48,220 nt of DNA from positions 1-48,220 of the forward strand of contig JAFUIN010000007.1 of assembly GCA_017468465.1 (NCBI GenBank), given 5' to 3'. The number at the start of each line of letters is the position of its first letter. Within the stretch, counting starts at the first letter, position 1. Below are positions 1,640 through 36,985 of this stretch, piece after piece. Made by a program: the position numbers and the translations under genes. Below the pieces are notes generated by a model. The model saw only the letters and a list, made by a program, of their open reading frames with translations. It was not told the origin of the DNA and searched no databases. The DNA comes from Clostridia bacterium. GTDB taxonomy: Bacteria; Bacillota; Clostridia; UMGS1840.

Positions 1640-2821
1640 CTAAATGCTGCGGTTACAAACCTGTATAATTTTGTCTGCCGCGCCCTTTGCACCGGAACAA
1701 TTCCGGAAGCTTGTGGCGATTTTTTTGACATTTTTCTGATAGGTGTCAACACTTAGTATTTTATTTATTGCACTCAAAACGTATGCTCCGTCTGATTGAT
1801 CAAGTTTTATGCCGGCGCCAAGCTCCAGAACTCGCTGGGCAACACCTTTTTGCTCGGATGTTTGTGGTAGCATAACGAGCGGGACTTCAAAATAAAGACT
1901 TTCGCTGACACTGTTCATTCCGCAGTGCGATACAAACACATCAGCTTTTTTCAAAACAGCAATTTGGTCAACATATGAATAAACCGATATATTTTCAGGA
2001 AGCTCTCCAAAGTCCTCGGTAGATACTAAATTGCCAACAGACATAATCACCTGATAATCGGTATTTTGAAACGCTGTGATACAACTTTTATAAAATTCCA
2101 TTTTGTCGTTGTTGACCGTTCCCATGGAGAGATAGATGAGTTTTTCTCTCTTTTTTTCGATTTCAGCAGTGGCAGGCCGAATGGAAGGTCCAACAAACAC
2201 ATACTTTTCCGAAAAAGTCTCTGAACAGGGTTGAAACCAAGGAGATGTATATACAATAGTATGTGTGTTATCGTCATTGCCGATAATATCAAGAATACTA
2301 TTTACGGGATACCCCTTATCCTTTAGTCTTTTGACTTGTTTAGATGTTTTTGGCATAGCGAAAAGCAGCTTCATCAGGTCACCAAGCCCCTGTTTCATAA
2401 TCTTTGCTGAATGCCTGTTAAATGCAAAGGTTGTTGTGGAGGAAACAAAGGGAATCCCAAGCTTTCTGGCAACGGCTTTTCCCCATAATGCCATAGAATC
2501 TGCCACGATACAATCCGGTTTTAAGGCTTTCATTTCTTGACAAACCTTGTCATCAAGAGCCAATGTAGTATCTACCAATATCTTTGTCGAGAATGCCAAG
2601 TCTTTTCCCACACGGGTAGAATCTTTGGCAGCCAGGTTTTGCTGTGTATCATACTCATCACAAGAAATAAAGGTTGCCCCTGCTGACTCGATTTTTTCGC
2701 GCATGCTGTTATAACAATAGTACCACACCTGATGTCCGCGGGAAACCAATTCCCACACCACCTCCAAAGTAGGATTGATATGTCCGTGGGCGGGAATACA
2801 GAAAAACACAATTTTTTTCAT
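1640..2821 (-). CDS. macrolide-type (MGT family) UDP-glycosyltransferase
   Basis: GT1-family GT-B fold enzyme of 393 residues that would move a sugar from an NDP-sugar to a small acceptor such as a macrolide, flavonoid or lipid. The N-terminal acceptor half starts MKKIVFFCIPAHGHINP, with the conserved HGHINP at 12-17. The C-terminal donor half has YLSMGTV (230-236) and the nucleotide-sugar signature VSHCGMNSVSES (297-308), followed by the PQTSEQ region (319-324). The acceptor cannot be predicted. The gene is 6 bp downstream of an AbrB-type regulator and is almost certainly co-transcribed with it, so the pair may be a resistance or self-modification unit switched by AbrB. No signal peptide; cytoplasmic. 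Confidence 0.88.
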   Translation of the reverse strand: MKKIVFFCIPAHGHINPTLEVVWELVSRGHQVWYYCYNSMREKIESAGATFISCDEYDTQQNLAAKDSTRVGKDLAFSTKILVDTTLALDDKVCQEMKALKPDCIVADSMALWGKAVARKLGIPFVSSTTTFAFNRHSAKIMKQGLGDLMKLLFAMPKTSKQVKRLKDKGYPVNSILDIIGNDDNTHTIVYTSPWFQPCSETFSEKYVFVGPSIRPATAEIEKKREKLIYLSMGTVNNDKMEFYKSCITAFQNTDYQVIMSVGNLVSTEDFGELPENISVYSYVDQIAVLKKADVFVSHCGMNSVSESLYFEVPLVMLPQTSEQKGVAQRVLELGAGIKLDQSDGAYVLSAINKILSVDTYQKNVKKIATSFRNCSGAKGAADKIIQVCNRSI

Positions 2822-30895: not shown

Positions 30896-32104
30896 CTAAT
30901 AATTGTTTCTGTATTTTTTCAAAAGGAAATTAAATAAAAACAACAGCAGCAATGCTCCAACGATGATCCCTGCGGTAATGTAAATCCAGGGTTCCACTGC
31001 GTTTTCAATTTTCAAGGTTTCCCATAAGCTGTTCTGTAAAGATAAGGTTTCGGGTGCCAGGCTTTCGAAATATTCGGTTGGAATGTCCATATCCTCAGCA
31101 TATAAAATTTCCATTACATCTTCGTGCCAGTCCTGCATATAGGCGATGTATTCTTCATCCTCACGAACCAATTTATGAGGAGACGCATAGCCGATATATT
31201 CAGCATTGGCAATGGCAATATCCTTTTCCAGCATAAAGTTGATGTAGCACTCTGCAAGCTCCTTGTTTTTGGTGCAGGAGGGAACACACATAGCATCCAC
31301 AAATACGTTGGTCCCTTCTTCGGGATAGTAAAAGCCAAGTAAATCGTTGGAATCGTACATGGTCATATAATCCCCTGCATAGTAGGGAGCAATGGCTGCC
31401 GAGCCGTTTTTCATTTTATTGAAAATTTCGTCCATGACATAGCTCTGAATCAAGGGCTTTTGCGTTTTCAGATTTTCTGCTGCCTTGTGCCACACTGCTT
31501 CATCGGTGGAATTGACGCTATCCCCCGCCCAGTAAATTGCGGTTCCGAAGGCGTCACGGGGATTGTTAAACTGCAAAATCTGCCCCTTATATTTTTCGTT
31601 CCACAGCAAATCCCAGCTTCCCAAATCTTCTTCATCAACCATTTCGGAATTGTAGATAATGCCCACCATTCCGCAGGTGTAGGGAACAGAATAGGTATTC
31701 TCGGGGTCATAAAACAGATTCTTAAACGTATCATCAATATACTGATAGTTGGGGATATTGGAAAAATCCAGCGGAGAGAGCATATCCTCCGCTATCATTT
31801 TTTCAATCATATATTCTGAGGGGATCACAACATCATAAGTGGCAGAGCCGCTTTTTAATTTGTTATACATATCCTCATTGCTGGCATAGGTGGTGTAATT
31901 CACCAAAACATCCAAGCCAAGCTCGTCGCGACAATAAGCTTCAAATTCTGCATTGACATCTAACGAATCTTCACTGCCGTCGGAGATATATTCGCCCCAG
32001 TTATACACATTTAAGGTAAGCGTTTTTGTTTCAGTTGCACAGCCTCCCAAGGAGAAAACCACAAACACTGCCAGACAGATAAGCAAAAGATATCTTTTTA
32101 TCAC
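30896..32104 (-). CDS. potD: spermidine/putrescine-binding lipoprotein with C-terminal membrane segment
   Basis: Solute-binding protein of 402 residues of the polyamine ABC importer. Lipobox SLGGC with Cys22; mature domain begins NVYNWGEYI, the hallmark of PotD/PotF. GTG start overlaps the potC stop by 4 nt. Unusually, the last 30 residues form a hydrophobic helix (about 375-394, IYITAGIIVGALLLLFLFN) with a basic tail KKYRNN, so the protein would be anchored at both ends. That is not part of the standard family. Confidence 0.92.
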   Translation of the reverse strand: MIKRYLLLICLAVFVVFSLGGCATETKTLTLNVYNWGEYISDGSEDSLDVNAEFEAYCRDELGLDVLVNYTTYASNEDMYNKLKSGSATYDVVIPSEYMIEKMIAEDMLSPLDFSNIPNYQYIDDTFKNLFYDPENTYSVPYTCGMVGIIYNSEMVDEEDLGSWDLLWNEKYKGQILQFNNPRDAFGTAIYWAGDSVNSTDEAVWHKAAENLKTQKPLIQSYVMDEIFNKMKNGSAAIAPYYAGDYMTMYDSNDLLGFYYPEEGTNVFVDAMCVPSCTKNKELAECYINFMLEKDIAIANAEYIGYASPHKLVREDEEYIAYMQDWHEDVMEILYAEDMDIPTEYFESLAPETLSLQNSLWETLKIENAVEPWIYITAGIIVGALLLLFLFNFLLKKYRNNY

Positions 32105-32907
32105 AGGGTCAACCTTCTTTCTGAACTTTTTTCCTTAGAGGACAGATTGGATAAAACAAGAAGCACCGTAACTGCCACAATCATCAGGGTGGACAGCGCA
32201 TAAATATCGGGTTTCACTTCTTTTTTGGTCATAGAATAAATCAGCAAGGGAAGGGTTTGAAAATCGTTCCCTGTGGTAAAATAACTAATCACAAAATCAT
32301 CTAAGGATAAGGTAAACGCCAGAATGAAGCCGGAGATTACTCCGGGAAGAATCTGCGGCAGCTCTACCTTGAAAAAGGACTGAAGCGGCGTGCACCCCAA
32401 ATCCTGTGCCGCCTCGGGCAAAGCACGGGGCATGGACATAATTTTGGGACGGACTGATAAAATGACATAGGGCAAACAGAAGGAAACGTGAGCAGTGAGC
32501 AAGGTGAAAAAGCTTAATTTTTCATCTTTTCCCATCATATTTCCCAAAAATACAAACAAAAGCATCATAGAAATCCCCGTTACGATATCAGGATTCATCA
32601 TGGGAATATTGGTAACCGAAAGAACGGTGTTGCGCCAGAAATTTTTACGGAATTTGCAAAGCCCCACTGCCGCTGCTGTACCAATTACGGTGGAAATCAC
32701 CGATGCACTGATTGCAAGAATCAGGGTGTTTTTTAAGGCATTAAAGGTGTCCGGAGAAGAAAACAGCTCCCGATACCAATACAAAGAAAGCCCCGTCATA
32801 TCACCGGTGTTTGCTGTGGAGTTGAAGGAAAACAGCATCAGCACCAGAATGGGGATGTATAAAATAATAAAAATGAATGCGGTGTAAATGCGGGACAGTA
32901 CTTTCAT
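32101..32907 (-). CDS. potC: polyamine ABC transporter permease PotC
   Basis: Membrane permease of 268 residues with about six segments and the ABC-permease EAA loop EAAQDLGCTPLQSFFKVELPQILPGVISG that contacts the ATPase. Pairs with PotB. The start has a weak upstream site and lies after an 870-bp repeat island that separates it from potB. Confidence 0.93.
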   Translation of the reverse strand: MKVLSRIYTAFIFIILYIPILVLMLFSFNSTANTGDMTGLSLYWYRELFSSPDTFNALKNTLILAISASVISTVIGTAAAVGLCKFRKNFWRNTVLSVTNIPMMNPDIVTGISMMLLFVFLGNMMGKDEKLSFFTLLTAHVSFCLPYVILSVRPKIMSMPRALPEAAQDLGCTPLQSFFKVELPQILPGVISGFILAFTLSLDDFVISYFTTGNDFQTLPLLIYSMTKKEVKPDIYALSTLMIVAVTVLLVLSNLSSKEKSSERRLTL

Positions 32908-32924
32908 AACAAAATATTCCTTTC

Positions 32925-33777
32925 TGTAGAAGCAGTGGAATAACCGCCACCGGCGGTTTTAGAAGTGGAAATTTGAAAATGGATAATTTAAGATTACAGT
33001 TAAGGGAAGGTTTCGTTTCCTCTGTCATTCTGAACGAAAGGGCTTGCCCTGCAGTGAAGAATCTCTTGTGTAAAGTGTGTGCGAACCCACAATCCCTCCA
33101 CCGCAAGCGGTCCCCCTCCCTTTAGGCAAGGGAGGCGTTGAGATTCCTCAAGGCGTTGCCTTTCGGAATGACAGCCAATGGCGGTTCTTGTGGTTGGTTT
33201 ATTGCGGTAAATCATTTCGTGGGTCGTCGGGGACGCCGACCCCTACGATATCAATGAAAAAGATGAAAACAAAATGGGAAACGATGCTTATTTACGCCAT
33301 TGCTTCTTTGTGGCGACAGATTGCAAGAGGGTGTGAAAAAAGAAGCTTATCTGTAAGAGTGATAAAAACCTCTGCAATGAGATTCTTCACTTCGTGCTTT
33401 GCACTCCCGTTCAGAATGACAAAGGAGTGTTTACGATTCTTCTTATCCAATTTGGCGGATGTAAAATCTTCCATATTGTAATCTTTCAGTGACTGCCGCG
33501 TATCTGGTGTACTAAAAGAAGCAGAAACGGGAAAAGATGCTTGTTTTACGCCATCGCTTCTTTGTGGCGGCAGGAAAACGAGATGTATTTTTTCGTTTTC
33601 TGTGACTGCCGCGTACCTGGTGTACTAAAAGGAGCAAAAAACGGAAAAAGACGCTTGTTTTACTCCATTTCTTCTTATCCAATTTGGCGGATGTAAAATC
33701 TTCCATATTGTAATCTTTCAGTGAGTGCCGCGTATCTTTGTATACGCAAACGAACGTAAAGTTGCAAGATGGAGATT
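32925..33777. repeat. composite repeat island 3, interrupting the pot operon
   Basis: No gene. Contains a TGTCATTC-ended MITE-like unit (33023-33173) carrying a nested CCACCGCAAGCGGTCCCCCT element with a hairpin CCTCCCTTTAGGCAAGGGAGG core, the GGGTCGTC hairpin (33221-33246), an inverted MITE fragment (about 33376-33422) and a 67-bp direct repeat with one mismatch (33439-33505 and 33671-33737), each followed by related TGCCGCGTA units. ORFs here are repeat-encoded. Confidence 0.75.
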
Positions 33778-34599
33778 TTACGACGCCAACTCTTCTTCTT
33801 CGGCGAAACGATTCATAACCGCCAGCGAAACCAACACCAAAATCATCATGACTAAAGAGATTGCGGCACCGACGTTGTAGGTGGAAACGTTTTGGAATTG
33901 GCGTTCGATGGTGTCACCGATGAGTTCAAAGGTACCGCCACCCAGCTTTTGCGAAATATAGAAGGTGGAAATGGAGGGGACGAACACCATGGTGATGCCG
34001 GAAACAATCCCTGCAGAAGACAGGGGAAGCACCACTTTCCAAAGAACCTGCAGCGTGTTACAGCCCAAATCCCGTGCGGCTTCCAAAAGATTTTCGTCCA
34101 ATTTGGAGATGATGGTGTAAATGGGAAGCACCATATAGGGCAAAAAGTCATATACCATGCCGAAAATTACGGCGCCCTTTGTACCGATTAAGTGTACTTT
34201 TCCAAGATTTAATGCGCCTAAGATACTGTTTAAGAAACCACCGTCGTCCATAATTGCCATCATGGAATAGGTACGGATTAGCAGATTGGTCCACATGGGG
34301 AGCATTAAAAGGGTAATCATAATTTTTTGCGATTTTTCCTTATAGCCTGCAATGATATATGCCAGCGGATATCCGATAAGAAAGCAGATGAAGGTGGCAA
34401 TCACCGAAAGGCTGACCGAAAGTAAAAAAGTGTTGGCATGCTCTTTTAAGGCAAAAATATTTTCCAAAGTAAAGCCGCCATAAGCATCGGTAAAGGTGTA
34501 ATAAACCACAAACAACAGCGGCGCCAGAATAAACAGAGCAGCCCACACAATATGAGGAGCGGCGGTGAGTCTGCCAAGGTTTTTTGTGCTTTTTTCCAT
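33778..34599 (-). CDS. potB: polyamine ABC transporter permease PotB
   Basis: Membrane permease of 273 residues, about six segments, EAA loop EAARDLGCNTLQVLWKVVLPLSSAGIVSG. ATG 34599 is taken as start (AGGTGA nearby, 1 nt after the potA stop); an in-frame GTG at 34608 is possible. Forms the heterodimeric channel with PotC. Confidence 0.92.
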   Translation of the reverse strand: MEKSTKNLGRLTAAPHIVWAALFILAPLLFVVYYTFTDAYGGFTLENIFALKEHANTFLLSVSLSVIATFICFLIGYPLAYIIAGYKEKSQKIMITLLMLPMWTNLLIRTYSMMAIMDDGGFLNSILGALNLGKVHLIGTKGAVIFGMVYDFLPYMVLPIYTIISKLDENLLEAARDLGCNTLQVLWKVVLPLSSAGIVSGITMVFVPSISTFYISQKLGGGTFELIGDTIERQFQNVSTYNVGAAISLVMMILVLVSLAVMNRFAEEEELAS

Positions 34600-34600
34600 C

Positions 34601-35716
34601 CTAATCACCTACCGTTTCTGTGTTAGAAAGCTCATCAATTTCGTCAGAGAAGGTGGAATAGTCACCATACTGACCGGAAAATTCGGATTTTTTCATAATA
34701 TGGATGGCATCGGGTTCAATGAAAATGCCGATTTCAGCCCCCACAGCAACAAAATCGGTGGACTGAATCATCCATTTGAAGCCGCTGATGTCTACGATAA
34801 TTTCATAGTGAACTCCTTTGAAGGTCACCGAAGTCACCGTTCCCTGCAGCATTCCGTCGGCTACAGCTACCACGTCAACATCCTCAGGGCGTACCACAAC
34901 GTCCACTTGTTCATTTTTGTCGAAACCTTTGTCTACACATTGGAAGGTGTGACCGGAAAAGGTTACCTTAAAATCTTCATTCATCACACCGTCTACGATG
35001 TTACTTTCTCCGATAAAGTCTGCAACAAAGGCGTTTTCGGGTTCGTTATAAATGTCGGTGGGAGATCCGATTTGCTGAATTTTGCCATCTGCCATAACCA
35101 CTACCACGTCAGACATGGAAAGAGCTTCCTCCTGGTCATGGGTAACATAGATAAAGGTAATGCCGGTTTGTTTCTGAATTTTTTTCAACTCGTTTTGCAT
35201 ATCCTTGCGGAGTTTTAAGTCCAGAGCGCCCAGGGGTTCATCCAGAAGCAACACTCTGGGATGACTGATTAAGGCTCTGGCAATGGCAACACGCTGCTGC
35301 TGACCGCCGGACAGCTTGGTCACGTTTTTGCGCTCAAAGCCTTTTAAGGCAACCAGCTCCAGCATTTCTTTCACCCGGCGGATGACTTCCCGGTTGGGTG
35401 TTTTTTTCACTCTTAAGGGAAAGGCAACATTTTCAAATACATTCAAATGGGGAAATAAGGCATACTTTTGAAAAACAGTATTGATATGACGTTTATGAGC
35501 AGGCACATGGTTAATGGGCTGCCCCTCAAATAAAATTTCGCCCTCGTCAGGAGTTTCAAACCCACCAACAATGCGCAATGTGGTGGTTTTTCCACATCCG
35601 GAAGGACCAAGCAAAGTTACAAACTGCTTGTCATAAATATCCAGATTGATAGAGTCTAATACCCGTTCGTCTTCAAACTCTTTGGAAATGTTTTTGAGTT
35701 CAATAATTTTTTTCAT
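34601..35716 (-). CDS. potA: polyamine ABC transporter ATP-binding protein
   Basis: ABC ATPase of 371 residues. Walker [10 protein letters not shown] (37-45), signature LSGGQQQR (135-142), Walker B VLLLDEP (155-161), D-loop GALD and the switch histidine in [10 protein letters not shown]; a C-terminal TOBE/OB region (about 240-350) as usual for the PotA/MalK group. First gene of the operon, with AAGGAAG before the ATG, directly after a structured leader. Confidence 0.95.
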
Positions 35717-35750
35717 AACGCCATACTTCCTTTTATGTAAAAATTAGCTT

Positions 35751-36098
35751 GCAATAAAAAAAGCGACTGTGCATAAAACACATCGCTTGCATTCTGTCAG
35801 ATAGAAAATGGGGAACAAAAAACAACCCCCATCAACAGCTTTGGATAGGTATCAGAGCGTGATACGCGTACTCTTATTGACCGTTTCACAAGTCGATGTG
35901 TGCCGATGACCGGCACATGGTTATAAAGTAACCAACTTATAAAATTTGAGCTTCTAACTCAATCAATAAGGCAGAGTTAACTGCCAACCGGAAAATCCGG
36001 CGTTTCGGCGTTCGACCCGGCTGTCCGTGTGGCCTTGGCTGAAAAATCAGCGGTCGTATTTCTCACCCTCCGGAAGATGCTCTTCCAAAGTCTGATGA
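35751..36098 (-). promoter_or_regulatory. structured leader of the pot operon, riboswitch-like
   Basis: Minus-strand leader of about 380 nt in total. An outer stem CATCAGACTTTGG (36085-36097) / CCAAAGCTGTTGATG (35830-35844) encloses hairpins GGAAGA/TCTTCC, GCTGA/TCAGC, CCGG/CCGG, GGTTA/TAACC, TGTGCCG/CGGCACA and GTATCA/TGATAC. The 3' strand of the outer stem overlaps a hairpin ATGGGG/CCCCAT (35808-35832). A stronger terminator AAGCGATGTG/CACAGTCGCTT with U-run follows (35751-35788). This arrangement fits a multi-helix sensor domain with a terminator platform. It matches no riboswitch class I know. Confidence 0.65.
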
Positions 36099-36105
36099 TA
36101 GTGTC

Positions 36106-36134
36106 AGTATATCACATATTTTTTGTAATGTCAA
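36106..36134 (-). promoter_or_regulatory. pot operon promoter
   Basis: Minus-strand TTGACA (36129-36134), 17 bp, TATACT (36106-36111). Confidence 0.85.
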
Positions 36135-36149
36135 CAAATTTTTACGTAA

Positions 36150-36985
36150 AATTTCCCGAAGTGCTGCGCACGGCATAATTTGCGCACGGCATAAGCTGCG
36201 CACGGCATATGGACGAATGAATCATGAATAATGAATAGTGCATAATTTTGGTGCCAGTCGTTTGCCTGCATTAAAAATATGCGGGTCGTCGAGGACGCCG
36301 ACCCCTACAATGCTACGACATGCGGTGAGGTTCCGGCATCATAAGCAATTTAATCTGTCATTCTGAACGGAAAGGCTTGCCTTGCAGTGAAGAATCTCTT
36401 TTTTTGAAATTTGAAATCACTCTTACATAGAGATTCCTCGGCTTCGCTCGGAATGACAATAGAGGAAGTCATCAACTTACATTGAGATTCCTTTCTGCAC
36501 TGTGCCATTGGCACTTTCAAGCAATAAATAATGCAGAATGCTTAGTGAATAATTTCGGTGCCAGTCGTTTGCCTGCATTAAAAATATGCGGGTCGTCGTG
36601 GACGCCGCCCCCTACAATGCTACGGCGAGAGGTGAAATTCATTGATTCTGTGCCTTTTATCAAACTATTGGCGCAGAGAAAATGGTTCAGAATGTTGGAA
36701 TTGAACCCGAAGGGAAGTTCCCGAAGCCGTACCGAGTGTACGGCGAGTGGTTCAATTCCGGCATTATGGGTTCTTTTATCAAACTTTTGGCGCAGAGAAA
36801 AGGATTCAGAACGGACAAACTGAACCCGCAGGGGTTACCCGAAGGCGTACACAAGTACGCCGAGAGGTGAAGTTTGTTCGTAACAAAAAAGCAATTACAA
36901 TCCAAAATTGTTGCAAACAATTTTCACATTATAAAAATAAATATATTCTCATTCCCATTGCTTTTTTGTGGTCTGGATTCTTTTA
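36150..36985. repeat. composite repeat island 4 (downstream of the DUF2156 gene)
   Basis: Non-coding. GGGTCGTC hairpins at 36283-36308 and 36590-36615 (the second mutated), a TGTCATTC unit (36356-36458) and a partial one after it, and two structured units: 36697-36759 (GGAATTGAACC/GGTTCAATTCC outside, CCGTAC/GTACGG inside) and 36815-36877 (ACAAACT/AGTTTGT outside, GGCGTAC/GTACGCC inside). AAGTGCTGCGCACGGC at the left is also repeated nearby and at 8455. Confidence 0.75.

Follow-up and report, generated by a model that had tools for sequence, protein, structure and literature searches.

The potABCD operon of the clostridial bacterium studied here is preceded by a structured RNA that we read as an OFF riboswitch acting by transcription termination; its structural class would be an undescribed one, and its ligand is most likely spermidine. 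The probability of this reading is put at roughly three in four, and binding, ligand and OFF direction are inferred. The RNA lies in a window of 48,220 nt (the whole stretch of DNA that was analysed), for which an original prediction had suggested a riboswitch-like leader ahead of potA. This suggestion has gained support from a conserved core, from covariation, from the association with spermidine genes and from a terminator and antiterminator that covary, ligand binding being not shown. One criterion for a riboswitch, a conserved structured RNA in the 5′ leaders of functionally related genes, is fulfilled.

Both the leader (35717..36099) and potA (34601..35716) are on the minus strand. The leader fills the roughly 380 nt between promoter and potA start codon, as had been predicted, and is headed by a sigma-70-type promoter, TTGACA-N17-TATACT, at 36134-36106 on the same strand (11 of 12 consensus matches); transcription is inferred to start near 36099. 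The MFE z-score of the leader is -4.6, none of 100 shuffled sequences being equally stable. Folding of the plus strand was used as a control only, since the minus strand carries both promoter and genes. A leader peptide was considered and rejected, because stop codons interrupt the conserved parts, which vary in the manner of RNA helices; the short ORFs in the window leader were not each compared across loci. Upstream of the leader, two 118-nt repeat copies (86%) are found at 36216-36333 and 36523-36640, and a 52-nt repeat (90%) occurs both there, at 36349-36400, and in the gap between potB and potC, at 33016-33067.

The product of potA is the ATP-binding protein of a spermidine/putrescine ABC transporter (NF043075, 566 bits with a cut-off of 550; TIGR01187, 370 bits with a cut-off of 356). 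The other genes, also on the minus strand, encode the permeases PotB (33778..34608) and PotC (32101..32907) and the substrate-binding protein PotD (30896..32104), which are named from best NCBIfam matches of 205, 226 and 166 bits, all below the curated cut-offs. This potD is the sole PotD match in the genome. Between potB and potC there is a repeat-filled gap of about 870 nt (32908-33777), with two 69-nt copies 99% alike plus inverted 48-nt arms, which is possibly an insertion splitting the operon. SpeD and SpeE had no match in the window genome, and NspC had none above cut-off, so that uptake is probably the source of spermidine for this host, possibly an auxotroph that lives on what it imports.

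The RNA is about 250 nt long and has an outer stem and about eleven helices in all (P1-P11), with a strong terminator after them; every feature described below is on the minus strand. The outer stem P1 (35830..36097), which encloses the aptamer candidate, joins 36097-36085 to 35844-35830 through the strands CATCA-ga-CTTTGG and CCAAAG-ctgt-TGATG. It had been proposed to connect bases some 250 nt apart and was found as described, with every pair standard and a span of about 267 nt. Within it, P2 (35855..36070) pairs GAGGGUGA with UCACGCUC (36070-36063/35862-35855); its pairs were checked, and its region was included in the covariation test of P1. The 5′ domain comprises P3 (36056-36052/36017-36013), whose closing pair covaries, P4 (36051-36047/36042-36038), which covaries as well, and P5 (36034-36032/36021-36019), followed by a GCCGA strand. 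P6 (35985-35981/35974-35970) also covaries, and P6a (36000-35997/35991-35988, in the region 35970..36000) is an extra hairpin present in some loci only. The 3′ domain (35869..35970) contains P7 (35969-35963/35880-35874), P8 (35961-35958/35950-35947), P9 (35944-35935/35893-35884), P10 (35933-35929/35923-35919) and P11 (35916-35911/35905-35900), all with pairs checked. At least six local hairpins had been expected inside the outer stem, and P4, P5, P6/P6a, P8, P10 and P11 account for them. P9 (UUUUAUAAGU/ACUUGUGAAA) is a conserved weak helix, rich in A-U and G-U pairs (-6.7 kcal/mol). P12 (AGAGU/ACUCU) is a possible further helix, which competes with P1/P2 in some loci, and a UGCC/GGCA helix from RNAalifold was not adopted because it varies on one side only.

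This fold was compared across 42 diverse leaders, in which many core positions are invariant. In P3-P11, standard pairs make up 91.7%, versus 86.1% with the 3′ letters shuffled and only 32-44% in slid-partner controls, and 145 double changes were seen where 48 were expected. For example, the closing pair of P3 alternates between U-A, C-G and G-C among loci, and in P5 a G-C pair is replaced by C-G. As P7 and P9 are nearly invariant, covariation is of little use for judging these two helices. P1 and P2 are too variable for alignment; for this reason, the pairing of each locus's own 5′ and 3′ strands was compared with that of partners swapped between loci. Own duplexes reach -21.7 kcal/mol versus -15.9 (sd 0.35) for permuted ones, and in 30 non-redundant loci the values are -19.8 and -15.0 kcal/mol, no permutation out of 20000 being as good. 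A comparative search for covariation had been named as a check on the prediction, and the fold passes it, outer stem included, far above the shuffled and slid controls.

The layout of an aptamer followed by an expression platform is also borne out, with a different platform from the one first proposed. In the window, an ATGGGG/CCCCAT hairpin with a weak U-rich tail (35832-35808, from sequence and scan) does share bases with the 3′ strand of P1, and a stronger intrinsic terminator does follow (35756..35790; stem 35788-35761, then a U-run; -12.1 kcal/mol). However, hairpins similar to ATGGGG/CCCCAT were found only in close relatives, mainly in the window's genus, and competition between this hairpin and P1 is rejected as the general platform. 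Of 112 related leaders, 108 have an intrinsic terminator after the RNA, with a 5′ arm complementary to two strands taken together, the 3′ arm of P11 and the invariant ACUUGUG of P9. It is these strands, rather than the outer stem, that form the platform against the strong terminator. In the window, the antiterminator strand ACACAUCG-a-CUUGU (35901-35888), made of the P11 3′ arm and the P9 3′ strand, forms 13 pairs with GCAAGCGAUGUGU (35790-35778) at -17.7 kcal/mol. Across loci the duplex covaries, with -13.3 kcal/mol for own partners versus -11.1 (sd 0.22) for partners permuted between loci; in 30 non-redundant loci none of 20000 permutations reached the own value, also when permuted within gene class. 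The terminator 3′ arm, taken as a control, has no own-locus preference. By eye, a matching change is seen in Streptococcus suis, where the leader has AUCUUG and the arm CAGGAU. In 103 loci, antiterminator and aptamer-type fold are balanced before the terminator 3′ arm is transcribed (median difference 0.5 kcal/mol), and once this arm is made the terminator state is ahead by 11 kcal/mol. Such energies are the profile of a co-transcriptional decision, which ligand binding to the core could tip. For the full window transcript at equilibrium the terminator state is favoured by about 9 kcal/mol, and thus the ON state must be kinetic. The criterion for an expression platform, mutually exclusive folds, is met by computation, not by measurement.

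An Rfam scan, also named as a check, gave a single match, RF02440 (SpF59_sRNA), at 36005-36056, with 63.9 bits against a gathering cut-off of 37.2, so that membership of the family is established; the entry is an uncharacterised 54-nt sRNA and no riboswitch. No SAM, lysine, T-box, potC or speF family was matched in 35740-36140 at E up to 10, and the earlier statement that no signature of TPP, FMN, SAM, lysine, cobalamin, glycine, ykkC, c-di-AMP or T-box RNAs is visible holds in that Rfam gave no known class other than RF02440. The 54-nt model takes in about a fifth of the window RNA, namely P3-P5 with the GCCGA strand. The entry, titled ldcC RNA and also known as F59, srn235, Spd_sr49 or M7, is typed as a streptococcal sRNA without function; it lacks the outer stem, the 3′ domain, the expression platform, a ligand and a cis-regulatory role. 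The wording of its title suggests that a link to a decarboxylase gene had already been noticed by someone. The two RNAs are homologous and the window RNA belongs to the same family, which the sRNA description does not fit. In the literature the RNA was nowhere found described as a riboswitch, subscription papers and preprints being outside the search.

Of 196 relatives, 23 carry RF02440, and at these loci conservation extends from GACC to GACUCU, about 230 nt, and further to a terminator. A pattern scan of one genome per species added at least 118 further places; about 7 pattern matches in genome contigs are expected by chance, as estimated from pattern length, and L076, L110, L126, L129 and a few others, without the 3′ domain and without polyamine genes, were set aside. 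R1, a covariance model of 97 positions built on just the 3′ domain, has no overlap with RF02440. It matches the window with 99 bits (E 2.5e-17), a score that is not independent because the window is among its training sequences. Among 398 genomes sampled from the phylum, R1 was found in 19 and RF02440 in 18, of which 17 are common to both with adjacent matches; in a class sample R1 was found in 46 of 391 genomes. Two loci, L158 and L181, have an R1 match without RF02440 because their 5′ domain has diverged, and the 3′ domain, kept there ahead of a decarboxylase, is therefore the better marker. They are perhaps variants in which a change of ligand would be worth looking for. In its full form the RNA is found in Clostridia, Negativicutes, Bacillus, Paenibacillus and Streptococcus, and its cultured hosts include Faecalibacterium prausnitzii, Bacillus testis, Paenibacillus oralis and S. 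suis.

Other RNAs share some of these properties. The known spermidine riboswitch, a SAM-I variant, is also associated with polyamine genes (speE, speB and ldcC), is switched OFF by transcription termination and has been shown to sense spermidine (Salvail et al., 2023; PMC10853860). It has the four-stem architecture of SAM-I, with 13 representatives in its consensus, whereas the window RNA has a different, larger fold and a different sequence, without a SAM family match at E up to 10; it is outside that class and unrelated to it. The potC motif of marine metagenomes is likewise named for a polyamine transporter gene, and its relation to the window RNA had been left untested; no such family is among the Rfam matches at E up to 10. 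The speF, odc1 and potE motif RNAs are structured leaders of polyamine-related genes too (PMC8632094; PMC11477304). The speF family had no Rfam match in the window, and the odc1 and potE models were outside the comparison; a uORF takes part in the odc1 motif, and the authors of potE themselves regard it as a weak candidate (PMC8632094; PMC11477304). No T-box covariance model matches the leader. Lysine and SAM-I riboswitches that act by terminator and antiterminator likewise have a long-range P1 round a conserved core and an antiterminator opposing the terminator 5′ arm, but their core is different, and the antiterminator strand of the window RNA comes from P11 and P9 within the core, not from P1.

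The genes downstream of the RNA point to the ligand. Of 132 distinct loci, 126 have an Orn/Lys/Arg decarboxylase (46), speD (40), potA (23) or carboxyspermidine dehydrogenase (17) as the first gene after the RNA. The remaining 6 (other or none) include four loci that end at a sequence edge, L162 with a more distant PotA, and L104, where an RNA copy (2001-2103, minus strand; R1 75 bits) is followed by a P-II-like gene and then by a potA-like ATPase that is only 46% identical to PotA, so that the regulon may have a new member here. By NCBIfam, speD, speE, nspC and the window potA are above cut-offs; carboxyspermidine dehydrogenase and decarboxylase are best matches below cut-offs. The linked genes represent two independent spermidine routes, precursor supply and import, and spermidine is their common product or cargo. 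The earlier guess of a polyamine ligand is thus well supported by comparative data and narrowed to spermidine, without binding data. The same cis-acting riboswitch could recognise another pathway compound, such as putrescine, agmatine, a carboxylated intermediate, SAM or decarboxylated SAM: the pneumococcal potABCD imports putrescine as well as spermidine (PMC7531197), many operons begin with the SAM-using speD, and others begin with a decarboxylase of the kind that in pneumococcus yields agmatine (PMC7531197). We regard this as unlikely, since only spermidine is product or cargo of all associated gene sets, the Bacillus and Paenibacillus operons with carboxyspermidine dehydrogenase and decarboxylase use no SAM, and putrescine and agmatine, as precursors, would be expected to turn speD or the dehydrogenase on, not off. 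That the RNA binds its ligand directly is inferred, not shown, and is held to be very probable. As long as it is not shown, a polyamine-responsive RNA-binding protein might instead hold the leader in one fold, proteins being known to use such terminator/antiterminator leaders, e.g., PyrR elements. This is quite improbable: an RNA of about 250 nt with a large invariant core far exceeds what protein-controlled antiterminators usually need, and no candidate protein gene was noticed beside the loci, where no systematic search was made.

There remains the classification by Rfam and the pneumococcal catalogues, under which the RNA would be a trans-acting small RNA lying before polyamine genes by chance. 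F59/srn235 indeed came from sRNA screens and is listed with a lung phenotype (PMC4387999), and a 2025 survey retains it as sRNA candidate M7 (TIGR4 869478-869804, 327 nt) and removes two others as cis-regulators (PMC12323649). However, F59 sits between SP0915 and SP0916 (PMC3395615), directly upstream of SP0916, the arginine decarboxylase gene speA (PMC7531197), and its 327 nt are close to the length of a terminated leader, which is estimated at about 325 nt for the S. suis homologue from inferred start to terminator. F59/srn235/M7 is therefore probably the terminated leader of the speA operon. This link is drawn from position, from the S. suis homologue and from RF02440 having been built on the pneumococcal sequence, without a reading of that sequence itself. 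Cis control is indicated by the position ahead of co-directional polyamine genes in 126 of 132 loci, across several classes of bacteria, and by the covariation of antiterminator and local terminator. With the R1 3′ domain adjoining RF02440 in 17 genomes, the criterion for an independent sRNA is not met, and a purely trans-acting RNA is hardly tenable; the terminated RNA might still act in trans as well. When potABCD was deleted in pneumococcus and intracellular polyamines were reduced, speA and speE rose 16.9-fold and 14.4-fold by qRT-PCR, a rise absent from the RNA-Seq of the same paper (PMC8540371). The rise fits the prediction of an OFF switch for intracellular polyamine, and other causes are possible.

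In the spermidine-sensing OFF switch proposed here, the P1-P11 RNA of about 250 nt would serve as the aptamer. Bound ligand would hold core helix P9 and P11, so that the terminator before potA would form and transcription would stop; P9 is thus the helix predicted to have to hold for OFF. When spermidine is scarce, the P11 and P9 3′ strands may pair with the emerging terminator 5′ arm and let the polymerase pass, and readthrough would give the importer or, at other loci, the biosynthesis operon. Spermidine binds RNA generally, so that specificity needs proof. Binding, in-line probing and reporter data are absent, and small-molecule binding, the identity of spermidine and the OFF direction are all inferred.

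In a wider sense, it is likely that these RNAs make up a widespread class of spermidine riboswitches, with a fold unrelated to known riboswitches, which is a common polyamine feedback sensor over three supply routes across much of the Firmicutes. If so, the class would reach from pneumococcus and from Bacillus and Paenibacillus to gut Clostridia, and a pneumococcal "sRNA" would be reassigned as a riboswitch, a testable switch. Confirmation would explain how polyamine synthesis is balanced with uptake in many Firmicutes of gut and soil, and it would add to the known aptamers a large new fold that recognises a simple cation.
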